This document shows, piece by piece, positions 38,619-45,103 of a stretch of DNA of 64,000 nt. Source of the stretch: Bacillus sp. FJAT-44742 (GTDB lineage: Bacteria; Bacillota; Bacilli; Bacillales; Marinococcaceae). The stretch is taken from the NCBI RefSeq assembly GCF_002797315.1, contig NZ_KZ454936.1, positions 3,233,645-3,297,644 on the forward strand. The letters run 5' to 3'. The position numbers and the translations under genes were made by a program. Under the pieces are notes generated by a model. That model saw only the letters and a program-made list of their open reading frames with translations. It ran no database searches and was not told the DNA's origin. The stretch's first letter is position 1. The number at the start of each line of letters is the position of its first letter.

Positions 38619-38648
38619 TTGACAAACCATTTTTGATTTGAAGATAAT
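38619..38648 (+). promoter_or_regulatory. Sigma-A-type promoter of the aldolase/dehydrogenase operon
   Basis: TTGACA (38619-38624), 18 bp, GATAAT (38643-38648). Transcription would begin near 38655, leaving about 100 nt of leader that ends in a GGAGGG ribosome site. The rest of the 38401-38618 gap shows no gene. Confidence 0.65.
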
Positions 38649-38752: not shown

Positions 38753-39844
38753 ATGAAAACCTTTGCATTTAATGGGCAGCCAACACACCCAACTACCGAG
38801 TGGCTTTTGAATGGAATGAAAGACGTCTTTTCCAAAGAAGGATACTCTTATCTTACAGCACCAGAAGACAACACTAATCTGGTCTTCAATGTGATTGACC
38901 GTGAATCTCCTCGTCCTTTTCGGCGAAAAGCCCAGGGAACATTTGTTGTTTCCATTGCAGAAACAAACAGCTCCCCTGAGGATATTCACAAGGAAGCCTA
39001 TCCTTACCTTGTACGAAGCTTAGCTAATCACTTGATGTATATTGCCCACGGTGATAAGGAAACAGAAGTCCATTTCTTAACACCTGAACAGGGAAGCTAC
39101 AGCCTCACTTTTTCTACCGAGGAAAAGGAAAATACTGTGATTGAGAGAGTATTTACAAGATTGGAGCCTCTTGCTTCCTCCCAGCTTGTCATTGATAACG
39201 ACTTCGTTGAAGACCTGCCCGAGGAATTATGGCAGGGTGATCATGTCACCCGGTCTTTAAAAGACTCTGGAGCCAAGCTTGACAGCATGGACCTGCTTCC
39301 TGCTCCGTTTCCTTTGGAAGAGGTGTTATCTGACCGGGACATTCGCCATCTTAAAAAGCTTTATGGCATCGGCGGACTCAGCTATGGAAACTTAAGCGCC
39401 CGTAAAGATAATAATCATTTTTGGATGAGTGCAAGCGGCATTGATAAAGGAAATATGAACGAAGTTGGAAAAGACTTTCTTTATATTACCGGCTATGATG
39501 ATGAGAAAAACACCATGAAGGTAAGCATCCCGCCGCGAATTACACCAAAACGAGCCTCAGTTGATGCGATTGAGCACTGGATGATTTATAAAGAACACCC
39601 AGAGGTTGGAGCGATTGTCCATGTTCATGCCTGGATGGACGGCATTGAGGCCACCGAGTTTAACTACCCGTGCGGAACAGTGGAGCTTGCAGAAGCAGTG
39701 GCTGATATTGTAAGCAAGTCAGAAGATCCCTCTCGCACAGTCGTGGGATTGAAAAACCATGGGTTAACGATCACCGGGACAAGTCTGGAAGATATTTTTG
39801 AACGTATTGAAGGGAAGATCATTCCTCAGGTTCCTATGCAATAA
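38753..39844 (+). CDS. Class II aldolase/adducin-domain protein with a long N-terminal extension
   Basis: Of the 363 residues, about 190-363 form a class II (zinc) aldolase/adducin domain: GGLSYGNLSAR, MSASGIDKG, the zinc pair in IVHVHAWMDG, and LKNHGLTITGTS with the third His. The first 185 residues (starting MKTFAFNGQPTHPTTEWL) are not a domain I recognise; they contain no signal peptide and look folded. Single-domain relatives (fuculose-phosphate aldolase, ribulose-phosphate epimerase) are about 215-230 residues. The gene is followed 35 bp later by a zinc alcohol dehydrogenase gene on the same strand. The two could oxidise and cleave a sugar or polyol, but substrate is unknown. Confidence 0.8.
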   Translation: MKTFAFNGQPTHPTTEWLLNGMKDVFSKEGYSYLTAPEDNTNLVFNVIDRESPRPFRRKAQGTFVVSIAETNSSPEDIHKEAYPYLVRSLANHLMYIAHGDKETEVHFLTPEQGSYSLTFSTEEKENTVIERVFTRLEPLASSQLVIDNDFVEDLPEELWQGDHVTRSLKDSGAKLDSMDLLPAPFPLEEVLSDRDIRHLKKLYGIGGLSYGNLSARKDNNHFWMSASGIDKGNMNEVGKDFLYITGYDDEKNTMKVSIPPRITPKRASVDAIEHWMIYKEHPEVGAIVHVHAWMDGIEATEFNYPCGTVELAEAVADIVSKSEDPSRTVVGLKNHGLTITGTSLEDIFERIEGKIIPQVPMQ

Positions 39845-39879
39845 GGAATCAAGGAAAATTAACTTACACAGGTGGTGCC

Positions 39880-41121
39880 ATGAAAGCCGTACAGTTTGAT
39901 TTAAATTTACCAAAGTATGCCTTTAGTAAAGCGGCGGGAAAAATCAACCCTTCCTTTTATGTCAACTCGCCCTTTACCTGTTTGCAGCTCAGGGAAGTGG
40001 AAGCTCCTTCCCTTCCAAAGGAAGATTGGGTGGAAGTGAAAGTGAAGTACGGAGGCATATGCGGCAGTGATTTAAATTTGATTTCCTTAAAAGACAGTCC
40101 GTCTACCTCTCCATTCATATCCTTTCCATTTACAATCGGCCATGAAATAACAGGCACTGTTTCTAAAGTCGGCAGGGACGTAAAGGATGTAGCAGTTGGG
40201 GAACGAATCGTGATTGATCCGATACTCGCATGCGAAGCACGAGGCATGGAGCCAATGTGTCATGAATGCCAGCAAGGAAACTATAATCTTTGCCACCATA
40301 TGAAAGATGGTACTATTTCTCCAGGTCTTTTAACTGGTACATGCAAGGATACAGGCGGCAGCTGGGGAGAGTATCTTGTTGCTCACCAGAGTCAGATCAT
40401 TAAGCTCCCTGATAACGTGGATGATAAAAATGGTGTGTTAGTTGAACCCTTCAGCTGTGCGTTGCATACCGTTTTGCAAAATCCGCCTAAGCCTAATGAT
40501 TCTGTACTTGTGATTGGCGCGGGTGTCATCGGCATTTGTCTTGTGGCTGCCCTGAAAGCCCTTGATTTTCAGTGTCACGTGAAAGTTCTTGTGAAATATC
40601 CTTTTCAAGAAGAGTTAGCAAAAAAATACGGTGCCGATGAGATTTTTTACTTAAGAGGGGATTACGTCAAAGACATTGCTGATTCTTTCGGTGCCGAGGT
40701 TCTCAAGCCTGTCATAGGAGAGCCCATTGTTCATGGCGGAGCAGATATCATTTACGAATGTGTCGGCAGCAAAAAGAGTCTTAACGACGCGATCCGTTTC
40801 ACCCGAAGAGGAGGAAAAATTGTTCTTCTTGGCCTGGCAAGCTTTGTTGACAACCTGGATATGACGATGATCTGGTTGAATGAACTTGAGATCAAAGGCT
40901 GTTTTTCCTATGGAACCGATGAAGTTGGTGGAGAAAGAAAACGGACGCTGCAAATTGCCGTGGATATAATGGAAGCTGGAAAGGTGGACCTTTCCCCTCT
41001 TGTTACTCATTACTTCCCCCTTGAGCATTATAAAGAAGCTTTGGGAGCAGCCTCCAATAAGAAAAAAGAAAATACGATGAAGGTGGTATTTGAACCTTCT
41101 GTTTTCCGGCTCCCTTCTTAG
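39880..41121 (+). CDS. Zinc-dependent medium-chain alcohol dehydrogenase
   Basis: The 413-residue protein is an MDR-family dehydrogenase. Catalytic zinc ligands appear in GGICGSDLN and the GHEITGTVSKVGRDV motif. The NAD fold has VLVIGAGVIGICLVAAL. The structural-zinc lobe is unusual: CEARGMEPMCHECQQGNYNLC gives C-x8-C-x2-C-x7-C where most members have C-x2-C-x2-C-x7-C, and the protein is about 60 residues longer than the usual 350. AGGTGGTG precedes the ATG. It is co-directional with the extended aldolase gene and should act on the same compound. A sorbitol/threonine/butanediol-type activity cannot be singled out. Confidence 0.88.
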   Translation: MKAVQFDLNLPKYAFSKAAGKINPSFYVNSPFTCLQLREVEAPSLPKEDWVEVKVKYGGICGSDLNLISLKDSPSTSPFISFPFTIGHEITGTVSKVGRDVKDVAVGERIVIDPILACEARGMEPMCHECQQGNYNLCHHMKDGTISPGLLTGTCKDTGGSWGEYLVAHQSQIIKLPDNVDDKNGVLVEPFSCALHTVLQNPPKPNDSVLVIGAGVIGICLVAALKALDFQCHVKVLVKYPFQEELAKKYGADEIFYLRGDYVKDIADSFGAEVLKPVIGEPIVHGGADIIYECVGSKKSLNDAIRFTRRGGKIVLLGLASFVDNLDMTMIWLNELEIKGCFSYGTDEVGGERKRTLQIAVDIMEAGKVDLSPLVTHYFPLEHYKEALGAASNKKKENTMKVVFEPSVFRLPS

Positions 41122-41292
41122 TTTCATAAGAAAGTATTAGCTGCAGTGATTAGAAAGCCCTTATGTCATGTTATTGTTACTAGGTAGTTAGACTCAGAAC
41201 GTGAGAAAATCTCTAATAAGATAATAACTTGTTTATTCTCTCTCTTGAAAAGGGAAAAGTAGACTAAACCTTTTTAAGAGAGGATGAATGTC

Positions 41293-41361
41293 ATGCTTCG
41301 TACAATCTTAATGATTATTGGTCTTATTGTAGTAATTAGTATTATTTTATCTTTCCTTTAA
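41293..41361 (+). CDS. 22-residue hydrophobic peptide with its own terminator
   Basis: An ATG at 41293 opens a frame for MLRTILMIIGLIVVISIILS plus two residues, ending TAA at 41359-41361. It has one Arg near the start and is otherwise a single membrane helix. AAGAGAGG lies nine bases upstream; an in-frame ATG at 41284 would add three residues but sits on the ribosome site. A perfect terminator follows 7 bp after the stop codon, so this is a self-contained transcription unit. It could be a small membrane modulator or a type I toxin-like peptide; no antisense RNA was identified. I do not recognise the family. Confidence 0.55.
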   Translation: MLRTILMIIGLIVVISIILSFL

Positions 41362-41368
41362 AAGACAG

Positions 41369-41402
41369 AAAAAGAACTCCTGACCGCTCAGGAGTTCTTT
41401 TT
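41369..41402 (+). terminator. Rho-independent terminator after the 22-residue peptide
   Basis: AAAAAGAACTCCTGA pairs perfectly with TCAGGAGTTCTTTTT around a CCGC loop. The flanking T-run suits the plus strand and the A-run also suits the gerC end on the minus strand. Confidence 0.93.
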
Positions 41403-41440: not shown

Positions 41441-42574
41441 CTACTTGAAATTCCTTGGGCCTGTTTTAAAGAGTCCAGTGTCTTTAATGGTTACATCTAC
41501 GTCGGCTGTTATATCAACAGCAGGAAACATTTCGTCTCTCCACTCTTCTTCGGACCATTCGAAAGTTCCAAGCTTTTTCTTAACATGCTTTCCAATCCCA
41601 AGACTGTCTACTCTAAGATCCTGAAGCTCCTGGGCTATTTCTTCCACCATGTTTTCAATATATACAGCAAGAGTTTGTTCCAGCTCTTTTTGCGCACCTG
41701 GTGAAAATATATCCATATCTCCCTGATATTCGTGAAGGGATCCTTTTACATCCGCTTTGTAATTTACCTTGATATGTGCGGGATCGCTGACATCCACCTT
41801 AAGGTTTCTATCACTGGTAACAGCAGTAAGTACAATGTTTTCCTGTTCTTCTCCCTCCGAACTGAGATTCACATTTATTTCTCCAATACGTACTCCGTCT
41901 CTTAAGAAAAAGAAAATATTGCTTTTTTTAGGGTTGATTTTGGAAATATATTGATCACCTTTAAAAAGAGCAGTTCCGTCCAAAATTATTTCGTTTTCTC
42001 CTACCTTGACAAGCGTGGCCACAGGATCTACTCCATCGTTTATCAAGTCTCTTGCAAAACTATATAGGTCAACAGGAGGGAGCGTAAATGACCTTGTTTC
42101 TTTTTCAATGATCCCGTCAAGATAATAGTCCGTTCGCTCATGTTCAGGGAAATCAGTCACGATTAAATCATGAGCAGTGCCCTGAGTGACGATTACTTTT
42201 ACTCTTTTACTTATTGTCGGGTCTCTAACCAGAGTATCGAGTGTCTCCCATACTCCTTCTTCCGCCAGATCAAGGCCAAAGAGAGCCACTCTCATCTGTC
42301 CTCCTACCAGCTCACGACTTGTTTGTCTGGAAAGCTGATGACGAGCATCCCTGCTGCTGGCTGCTTCCATCGTTAAGGTTTCACTTTCGGCTCCCTCAAG
42401 CTCCCCTGCTTTTGGCAATTTCATAGTTACCCGAAGTTTCTCTTCCTCTTCACCGTCGTTTATATCATAGCCAATTGTATGGATCACCCCCAGCTCTTCC
42501 AAAATTCGTTCGTCCTCACATCCTGAAGCCACCATGAGAAGGAGGAAAAACAGAAAAACAATACGGTTCTTCAT
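41441..42574 (-). CDS. Spore germination lipoprotein, GerC family
   Basis: GerC-type subunits are lipoproteins of the nutrient germination receptor in the spore inner membrane. The 377-residue protein has a signal peptide with lipobox VASGC (Cys19). The family N-terminus follows (DERILEELGVIHTIGYD), then GQMRVALFG, RDPTISKRVKVIVTQG and a C-terminal Ger(x)C domain. Its ATG overlaps the gerB-type stop in ATGA. It is the last gene of the operon. Confidence 0.94.
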   Translation of the reverse strand: MKNRIVFLFFLLLMVASGCEDERILEELGVIHTIGYDINDGEEEEKLRVTMKLPKAGELEGAESETLTMEAASSRDARHQLSRQTSRELVGGQMRVALFGLDLAEEGVWETLDTLVRDPTISKRVKVIVTQGTAHDLIVTDFPEHERTDYYLDGIIEKETRSFTLPPVDLYSFARDLINDGVDPVATLVKVGENEIILDGTALFKGDQYISKINPKKSNIFFFLRDGVRIGEINVNLSSEGEEQENIVLTAVTSDRNLKVDVSDPAHIKVNYKADVKGSLHEYQGDMDIFSPGAQKELEQTLAVYIENMVEEIAQELQDLRVDSLGIGKHVKKKLGTFEWSEEEWRDEMFPAVDITADVDVTIKDTGLFKTGPRNFK

Positions 42575-43656
42575 CCTTTTTGAACACTCCTTCCCGGCTT
42601 TTTAAAAGACAAGATAACTAATAGTAATATAGGAAGGCCAAACGAAATAACGGTAGCATGCATGGCCACGAGTGCAAGGTACTCTTGGATTTGATGAAAA
42701 GTGTCAAGCATTCTAACCGGAATGTAGGTACCGATAATGAGAAAAACGACAATCCAGGTTGGACGCTTAGGCTTGTATATTCTTTCGAGAGCTTCCTTTG
42801 CTGCCCAATAATAAAATCCGACCGTCACCACGACTTTTCCAATAAAAAAGGAAAAGATTAGAGCCTCCGCTCTCTCCACAAAGGGAAGCCGCACATAACC
42901 AATTAAGTCTAATACTGGAAACATAATCTCCACTACATACTGTGAGCCAAAGAAGCCTAATGAAACAATGGTTGTAGCCATGTAAACAAAAAGAGAAAAG
43001 AGATTCCCCAGCACCAGGGCTTGAAAAAGCCTGAACTTCTTGTACATCAGGGGAAACAGCAACAGAATCAGCTCAAAACCTAAAAACGCAGGATATACCT
43101 CCAGCATTCCTTCCACATTTGCAATATTTGAATGAAAAAGTAGTGGCTCAGTTCTTCCCCATTCAAATTCCTGCATAGGAAAAATAAGCGTGCCCAATGT
43201 CCAAATTGACAAGAAAAATATCATAGATGCAGCTTTTACCATACTGTAAGCCTTTGTATGGACGTATAGTACAACTAATAACAAAATGGTCACTTTAAAT
43301 ACCCATGGTGAGGTGGTTGGAAAGCTGATCATTTGAAAAATAAACACAAACTGGGCGTTAACGAGACACCCTAAAAAAGCCCACACAAGAACCAGGTAGA
43401 CATATATAGGGTAAGCGAGCCACATAGAAACTGATTCTAGAATCTCAAATACAGACTTTCCTTTCCCACGTTGAAAAGCCAGGGCGATCAGCCAGGCATT
43501 GGCTATGACAATCAGAAAGACAGCAAGGAGTCCAATCCAACCATTGGGACCAAGATTTTCTTCCACAAGGCGGGGCAAGCTGAACAGCACAACTCCTGAT
43601 TGAAGCATGTACGTTAGGAGGATCACATGAAAAACTTGCAGTTTTTCTCTTAGCAT
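42571..43656 (-). CDS. Spore germination permease-like protein, GerB family
   Basis: The 361-residue integral membrane protein has about ten hydrophobic helices and the family start LLTYMLQSGVVLFSLPRLV. GerB subunits belong to the amino acid/polyamine transporter superfamily and bind the germinant in receptors of the GerA type. It sits between the GerA- and GerC-type genes, and its stop overlaps the next gene by 4 bp. Confidence 0.93.
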   Translation of the reverse strand: MLREKLQVFHVILLTYMLQSGVVLFSLPRLVEENLGPNGWIGLLAVFLIVIANAWLIALAFQRGKGKSVFEILESVSMWLAYPIYVYLVLVWAFLGCLVNAQFVFIFQMISFPTTSPWVFKVTILLLVVLYVHTKAYSMVKAASMIFFLSIWTLGTLIFPMQEFEWGRTEPLLFHSNIANVEGMLEVYPAFLGFELILLLFPLMYKKFRLFQALVLGNLFSLFVYMATTIVSLGFFGSQYVVEIMFPVLDLIGYVRLPFVERAEALIFSFFIGKVVVTVGFYYWAAKEALERIYKPKRPTWIVVFLIIGTYIPVRMLDTFHQIQEYLALVAMHATVISFGLPILLLVILSFKKPGRSVQKG

Positions 43657-43678
43657 AGCTTATACCTCGTTTGCTGAC

Positions 43679-45103
43679 TTATTTAATATATTTCTCTCTC
43701 GTTCCCTTTGGGCGAGCCCAATACGGACCTCGAATAAAGGTAAAAAGCATATCTCTGAGGACTAATGGAGTTAAAGGAACCATATACGACGTTCTAACAT
43801 TCTGTAAGCTTGCCAGGTGAATAATAATGAAAACCAGACCGACTACGAGGCCGAAGTGCCCTAAGAAGCCTGCAAGAATTATTAACCCAAAACGAATAAC
43901 CCTGATTGCTGTGCTCATTAAGTAACTTGGTATCACAAAGGAAGCAATCGCAGAAATCGCCACCGTCACAAGGAGGATACCGCTCGCAATGCCTGCCTGC
44001 ACAGCAGCCTGTCCGATGACAATTCCTCCCACAATCCCAATTGTCTGTCCGATTTTTGTAGGAAGACGGGCCCCTGCTTCTCTTAGCAGCTCAATGGTAA
44101 ACTCCATCATCAGCGCTTCAACGAGGGGAGGAAAAGGAACCTGTGCTCTTGAGGAGGCAATCTGTAAAAGCAGATCTTCCGGGATAAGCTCGTAGTGATA
44201 AGTAATCACAGCAACATAAAAGGCAGTAAACGTCAGTGTAATCAAAAACGCCACTAAACGAAGAAGCCTGGTTGCTGAACTTAATATCCAGCGCTGATAA
44301 AAGTCATCAGGGGAGGCAAAAAACTCAAAGAAACTAGTAGGTGTCATCAATGCAGACGGACTGCCATCAACCATGGCTGCTACTTTTCCATCAACGAGCT
44401 TGGAAGAAATCAGATCTGGTCGCTCTGTCGTCATAAACTGGGGAAACAAGGAGTTTGGGTGATCATCTATATATTGAGCCAACATTGTACTTTCAAAAAC
44501 GGAATCCATTTGCACGCTGGTAATTCTTTTTTTCATTTCCTCTACTGTTTCCTCTTCGGCTCTTCCTTCCATGTAAAGAAGGGCCACATCTGTCTTTGTG
44601 ACTGCTCCTACCTCAAAAAATTCGATCTTCAAATCAAACGATTTAATTCTTCTTCTAATAAGAGAAAGGTTTGTCCCTAAGGTCTCTACAAAGGCGTCAT
44701 GAGGACCGGAAACGACTGTCTCCGTTTCACTTGATTGTACGGTGCGGCTTTCAGGCCCGTATACATCTATTAAAAAGGTTTGATTTTTCCAGAACACTGC
44801 TGCCTCTCCACTAAGGATGCCATCGACCACTTCAGCAGTCTTTTTCCCAACAGCTGATTGTTCTTCAATAAACAGCTCATTGATGTCTGCTTCTTTCTTT
44901 TCCCGGAGAGGGCCAAGAAGGTTTCTCTCAAGCTTGTCTTCTTCTACAAGGTGATTGAAATAAAGAACAGTAGTATCAGCATCTGGAGTCTTTCGTTCAA
45001 TCAAGTCGTCACATCGTTCGAAGTGACGAAGCACTTCTTTTAAAGATGGAGAGCTGTTCTCTTGTTCCTGAGTAGATTTTGGATGTAGTAGTGACCGCTT
45101 CAC
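43679..45103 (-). CDS. Spore germination protein, GerA family
   Basis: The 474-residue protein has a soluble N-terminal half with VDGILSGEAAVFW. The membrane domain carries the family motif (PFPPLVEALMMEFTIELLREAGARLP in two parts), GIVGGIVIGQAAVQAGIAS and four to five helices. GerA subunits form the oligomeric ion channel of the germinant receptor. The start is a GTG at 45103, nine bases after GGAGG. A sigma-G-like promoter lies upstream. Which nutrient is sensed is not predictable. Confidence 0.95.
   Translation of the reverse strand: MKRSLLHPKSTQEQENSSPSLKEVLRHFERCDDLIERKTPDADTTVLYFNHLVEEDKLERNLLGPLREKKEADINELFIEEQSAVGKKTAEVVDGILSGEAAVFWKNQTFLIDVYGPESRTVQSSETETVVSGPHDAFVETLGTNLSLIRRRIKSFDLKIEFFEVGAVTKTDVALLYMEGRAEEETVEEMKKRITSVQMDSVFESTMLAQYIDDHPNSLFPQFMTTERPDLISSKLVDGKVAAMVDGSPSALMTPTSFFEFFASPDDFYQRWILSSATRLLRLVAFLITLTFTAFYVAVITYHYELIPEDLLLQIASSRAQVPFPPLVEALMMEFTIELLREAGARLPTKIGQTIGIVGGIVIGQAAVQAGIASGILLVTVAISAIASFVIPSYLMSTAIRVIRFGLIILAGFLGHFGLVVGLVFIIIHLASLQNVRTSYMVPLTPLVLRDMLFTFIRGPYWARPKGTREKYIK

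Follow-up and report, generated by a model that had tools for sequence, protein, structure and literature searches.

Which pathway is served by two adjacent genes of Bacillus sp. FJAT-44742, one coding for an aldolase-like protein of 363 residues and the other for a zinc dehydrogenase of 413 residues, is the question raised by this locus. The original prediction, made on the 64,000-nucleotide stretch of DNA that we call the window, presented the pair as an undescribed pathway and implied a stand-alone sugar or polyol route with no kinase nearby. We find both genes where they had been placed, on the same strand and separated by a gap of 35 bp (Table 1). The idea of an undescribed pathway is supported by the strong linkage of the two genes, by their phyletic co-occurrence, and by the lack of any equivalog match above cut-off and of any paper found. 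The proposed setting, by contrast, is contradicted by a DAGK_cat/YegS-type lipid kinase gene close to the pair. Furthermore, the conserved partners of the pair are this kinase together with genes of the PlsC, Lgt and UgtP types, which argues against a stand-alone, kinase-free sugar or polyol route and makes a lipid-related pathway more likely.

Table 1. Features of the window at and around the aldolase-dehydrogenase pair, in order of position
Feature	Position	Strand	Remarks
Heterodisulfide-reductase-like membrane-bound iron-sulfur oxidoreductase, 743 aa	33093-35324	-	judged by eye
DAGK_cat/YegS-type lipid kinase, 294 aa	36836-37720	-	divergent from the pair
PlsC-like protein of the 1-acylglycerol-3-phosphate acyltransferase family, 207 aa	37777-38400	-	divergent from the pair
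Sigma-A-like promoter, TTGACA-N18-GATAAT	38619-38648	+	11 of 12 matches; upstream of the pair; consensus match only
Aldolase-like two-domain protein, 363 aa	38753-39844	+	N-terminal domain (about 1-185) of no assigned family; class II aldolase-fold domain (about 186-363); H290, H292, H336, D271
Coding region for residues 1-185 (N-terminal domain)	38753-39307	+	alpha/beta and conserved; unmatched in Pfam, NCBIfam and PDB sequences, with no confident match to a PDB fold
MDR zinc dehydrogenase, 413 aa	39880-41121	+	retains catalytic C61, H88 and the E89/E189 region as well as four structural Cys; NADP(H) probably preferred
Tiny hydrophobic ORF, MNVMLRTILMIIGLIVVISIILSFL	about 41287-41361	+	between dehydrogenase gene and terminator; no similar peptide in the fetched relatives
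Strong hairpin terminator	41369-41402	+	possibly bidirectional; downstream of the pair
GerA-type spore germinant receptor-like operon (474, 361 and 377 aa)	41441-45103	-	adjoins the pair; last protein with a lipoprotein-like start; judged by eye

The clear sigma-A promoter that had been claimed for the pair is there as a match to the consensus. A site of high quality is present upstream, but the scan returned five promoter-like sites where 6.1 were expected by chance, and since the class as a whole is not above chance, only the quality and the position of this site support it.

The only Pfam family in the 363-residue protein is Aldolase_II (PF00596), confined to the C-terminal half (64.3 bits against a gathering cut-off of 22.2), and its gene is the sole Aldolase_II gene found in the 3.99-Mb source genome. 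Its nearest aldolase sequences belong to Bacillaceae, for example Salsuginibacillus, Salipaludibacillus and Evansella. The alignment profile matched no PDB sequence at E<=0.01, and fold comparison returned FucA-type structures with E values down to 2e-8, the best being 2irp, 2opi and YgbL. The histidine triad H290, H292 and H336, as had been noticed, is complete; it is invariant in 29 homologues and aligns with the corresponding metal ligands of Aquifex 2irp. The position of Glu73 (FucA numbering) is held by Asp271, an invariant and conservative replacement, and AraD also has an Asp there. Phosphate recognition in FucA involves N29, T43, G44, S71 and S72, and its catalytic residues are Glu73 and Tyr113' of the neighbouring subunit (PMC11841055). 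In the alignment to 2irp most of the phosphate pocket is kept, namely N213 with the Gly of the G-N pair, S228 (for Thr), G229 and S269; the Ser72 position is taken by Val270.

These residues make it likely that the protein binds a metal and a phosphate group. Classical FucA catalysis, and hence aldolase activity, is not assured, because the segment that carries Tyr113 is absent, with about 31 residues fewer between positions 293 and 311 than between 102 and 151 of 2irp. The missing acid may come from the N-terminal domain or from an adjacent subunit, and a replacement for Tyr113 from elsewhere, by analogy with pyruvic oxime dioxygenase (POD), is possible. All NCBIfam equivalog scores are far under cut-off, including the best, that of methylthioribulose-1-phosphate dehydratase, MtnB (45.4 against 137.05 bits).

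The first 185 residues, for which no family could be named from the sequence by itself, also resisted assignment here. The region has no match in Pfam or NCBIfam, its profile gave a best E value of 0.11 against PDB sequences, with nothing significant, and its predicted structure matched no PDB fold at E<=0.001 even though the models are of fairly high confidence (pLDDT 84.9 for the domain alone and 86.8 for the whole chain). A flavodoxin-like identity was rejected, the fold matches to SsuE and flavodoxins being weak (TM at most about 0.46, E above 0.001). In 29 homologues, with identity in this region down to 38%, residues R57, R58, T63, Y83, R88, N92, F108, T110, E112, G114, Y116 and R136 are invariant, and in a broad-phylum scan the region was joined to the aldolase part in 20 of 20 matches; the conserved residues and the constant company of the aldolase part indicate that it is not filler. 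In a few genomes the gene for the two-domain protein is frameshifted, split or reduced to a remnant (L133 in genome G022, L078, L081, and L139 in genome G039), and it is therefore dispensable in some lineages.

The second protein has ADH_N and ADH_zinc_N domains and both catalytic and structural zinc ligands, which identify it as an MDR zinc dehydrogenase. Its relatives are threonine, sorbitol and ketose dehydrogenases, and every equivalog score is far under cut-off; for the L-threonine 3-dehydrogenase models the values are 150.6 against 380 and 148.1 against 458 bits. The suggestion of an altered structural-zinc lobe is right in that the first loop is longer, but all four cysteines (C118, C127, C130 and C138) are kept and invariant in 17 sequences, and the spacing C-x7/8-C-x2-C-x7-C (6-9 in a few rows) is a trait of the whole subfamily. 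Its Bacilli members share the invariant motifs DSP-x2-S and C-x2-TGG. The cofactor is likely to be NADP(H), since the second Rossmann strand ends in an invariant Lys, within the stretch that aligns with the Arg-bearing site of the NADP(H)-dependent enzyme 1e3j, and no acidic residue of the NAD type is present there.

How often the two genes occur together had been proposed as a check, and at 46 of the 57 other fetched loci the dehydrogenase gene lies beside the aldolase gene on the same strand. In these loci and the window the two are mostly overlapping or at most 50 bp apart, with the dehydrogenase first in 40 cases and the aldolase first in seven; linkage kept despite differing gene orders argues for function. 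The pair is also present in deep-branching high-GC Bacillota (L109, L110, L113-L119), where the dehydrogenase is 33-48% identical. In Thermoactinomycetaceae an SDR occupies the dehydrogenase position, and one locus (L071) has the order aldolase-SDR-kinase on one strand. Among 61 relatives the dehydrogenase was found in 11, every one of them aldolase-positive; the search for an ortholog gave nothing in four close relatives that do have the aldolase, nor in the MAGs of Actinomycetota and Chloroflexota that were included.

After the dehydrogenase, the commonest neighbour family of the aldolase gene is the lipid kinase (44 loci, window included), which at 42 loci lies upstream on the opposite strand. 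Lgt-like (16 loci), UgtP-like (14), PlsC-like (12) and phosphodiesterase (12) genes also recur. With orthologs of the kinase defined by scores above 270 bits (the next best being 239), the kinase is present in all 15 aldolase-positive genomes, one of which (G022) is that with the frameshifted gene, and in none of the other 46 relatives. The Fisher p value of 1.4e-14 overstates this association since the genomes are related; the positives span several families. In one genome (G033) both genes are present on different contigs, and at three loci (L070, L071 and L137) both are retained in an altered arrangement. A PlsC-like gene scoring at least 130 bits follows the same pattern (13/15 aldolase-positive genomes against 0/46 others), and a locus-specific Lgt paralog above 400 bits occurs in aldolase-positive genomes only. 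This second prolipoprotein diacylglyceryl transferase gene was seen 3' of the aldolase gene at L034, L036, L040, L131 and other loci. In the aldolase tree, kinase-linked loci are confined to the Bacilli part (40 rows), and the kinase/acyltransferase neighbourhood was seen only in the Bacilli/Alicyclobacillaceae/Thermoactinomycetaceae clade; in the deeper rows no lipid kinase lies near the aldolase gene, and the dehydrogenase is present or missing. Genes of the locus may have orthologs in ytlQ and ytlR of B. subtilis, and ytlR presumably codes for a member of the same kinase family. The latter gene appears once, in a list of membrane phospholipid genes (PMC2885750), and a literature search on ytlQ returned nothing relevant.

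The dehydrogenase is also found in other company. Of 398 genomes, 43 have a match to it and 20 have the aldolase, and several clostridia-like families have the dehydrogenase without the aldolase. At nine loci (L147-L154 and L159) a gene for an alpha-oxoamine synthase lies directly 5' of the dehydrogenase ortholog, in several cases with a 4-bp overlap. The best PDB match of the synthase is serine palmitoyltransferase (SPT) in the f88 family (E 2.5e-88) and a KBL/BioF-like one in f122. No curated cut-off for SPT, KBL or BioF is reached, and in the dehydrogenases so paired Asp replaces Glu as the third ligand of the catalytic zinc. These loci may or may not be threonine dehydrogenase-KBL pairs: the window dehydrogenase falls under the TDH cut-off, and the best hits of the synthases are an SPT/KBL/BioF mixture under all cut-offs. 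Possibly the loci represent an undescribed sphingoid-like or threonine/glycine route. No SPT-type family was noticed among the recurrent aldolase neighbours, SPT/KBL-type synthases lying only beside dehydrogenases in aldolase-free genomes. In both settings, judging from the families concerned, the dehydrogenase would have as its partner an enzyme that forms or cleaves a C-C bond adjoining a ketone.

We propose, with confidence about evenly balanced, that the pair supplies the soluble enzymes at the centre of a lipid-related locus, conserved but undescribed, in which C-C bond chemistry and ketone reduction are combined with kinase and acyltransferase steps. The 363-residue protein would act on a phosphorylated substrate, probably linked to a lipid, and carry out metal-dependent C-C chemistry (aldol or retro-aldol) beside the phosphorylated end, and the N-terminal domain, so far seen here only in this aldolase family, would probably complete the active site or bind the non-phosphate end. 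The dehydrogenase would perform the NADP(H)-linked reduction, or oxidation, of the ketone adjacent to that C-C bond, the divergent lipid kinase would make or consume a phosphorylated lipid, and the PlsC-like acyltransferase would acylate it. The linkage, the co-occurrence and the retained metal ligands and most phosphate-site residues are observed; we infer the lipid nature of the substrate, the NADP(H) preference and the direction of the reaction, and the divergent neighbours may be kept together for other reasons. A more specific form, which we put forward with low confidence, is a metal-dependent counterpart to sphingoid-base metabolism, in which DHAP or another phosphorylated three-carbon unit would be joined to, or split from, a long-chain aldehyde, the ketone reduced, and a new class of polyhydroxy lipids in Bacilli finished by the kinase and the acyltransferase.

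Alternatively, the pair could belong to an ordinary sugar- or polyol-phosphate pathway, in which a ketose phosphate is cleaved or epimerised, the dehydrogenase interconverts polyol and ketose, and the lipid genes alongside are incidental. We regard this as possible though doubtful. Such reactions dominate both enzyme families, the phosphate pocket is largely retained, and the deep high-GC lineages have the pair with no adjoining lipid genes; however, none of the recurrent neighbour families at the aldolase loci is a sugar kinase, sugar transporter or sugar regulator, co-occurrence with the lipid kinase ortholog is perfect, dehydrogenase orthologs are elsewhere paired with an SPT/KBL-type synthase, and the Tyr113 segment is missing.

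That missing segment, together with Asp in place of Glu73, also speaks for the view that the fold catalyses a reaction other than an aldol one, still coupled to the dehydrogenase; it could be a dehydratase like MtnB, a decarboxylase, an epimerase, or an oxygenase like POD. The top family model, MtnB, is a dehydratase, and POD, in which Glu73 and Tyr113 have been lost, provides a precedent for a changed reaction on the aldolase fold (PMC11841055). We nevertheless think this improbable: the MtnB score is far short of its cut-off (45 vs 137 bits), and, in contrast to POD as described in PMC11841055, the protein retains an acidic side chain at position 73 and the greater part of the phosphate pocket. 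Finally, that the kinase and acyltransferase genes merely share inherited synteny around a common promoter region in Bacilli, uncoupled from a pair with an independent house-keeping or detoxification role, would fit the nearly constant divergent arrangement and the restriction of kinase linkage to a single aldolase clade, but is rendered quite unlikely by the joint retention of kinase and aldolase on separate contigs or after rearrangement and by agreement of their presence and absence in 61/61 genomes.

The lipid-related locus that we favour resembles several known systems in part. With the class II (zinc) aldolase/MtnB superfamily (FucA, AraD, MtnB, DrdA) the 363-residue protein shares, in its C-terminal half, the His triad, an acidic residue at the Glu73 position (Asp271) and the G-N, S-G and Ser elements of the phosphate pocket; it differs in the extra 185-residue N-terminal domain, the missing Tyr113 stretch and Val270 for Ser72. 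L-threonine 3-dehydrogenase, sorbitol dehydrogenase and the whitefly NADP(H) ketose reductase (1e3j) have the MDR domains, catalytic-zinc residues and four structural cysteines in common with the window dehydrogenase, as well as the lack of an acidic NAD-type residue, whereas the longer loop between the first and second structural cysteines sets the latter apart in its own subfamily. The synthesis and turnover of sphingoid bases (SPT, 3-ketosphinganine reductase, sphingosine kinase, S1P lyase) combine the same kinds of gene product, namely an enzyme for a C-C bond, a ketone reductase and a kinase of the DAGK_cat family, and dehydrogenase orthologs adjoin an SPT/KBL-type synthase in clostridia-like genomes; the C-C bond enzyme of the window, however, is a metal-dependent aldolase-fold protein and not a PLP-dependent one. 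The conserved neighbours come from the families of the Bacillus glycerolipid genes (YegS/DgkB-type kinases, PlsC, Lgt, UgtP), but are paralogs specific to this locus and occur together with the aldolase, and to our knowledge neither the aldolase nor the dehydrogenase of the pair is part of any glycerolipid route. A literature search for this module, or for clusters of an aldolase with a lipid kinase or acyltransferase, found nothing relevant within a coverage that largely excluded subscription papers.

If the proposal is correct, a gene pair that family models assign to the sugar enzymes would serve lipid metabolism in many Bacillota, among them Priestia megaterium, Bacillus methanolicus and several alkaliphiles, and a domain with no known fold partners would take part in chemistry of the class II aldolase type. 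A missing lipid would come as a surprise, since most lipid pathways in these widely used bacteria are regarded as already known.
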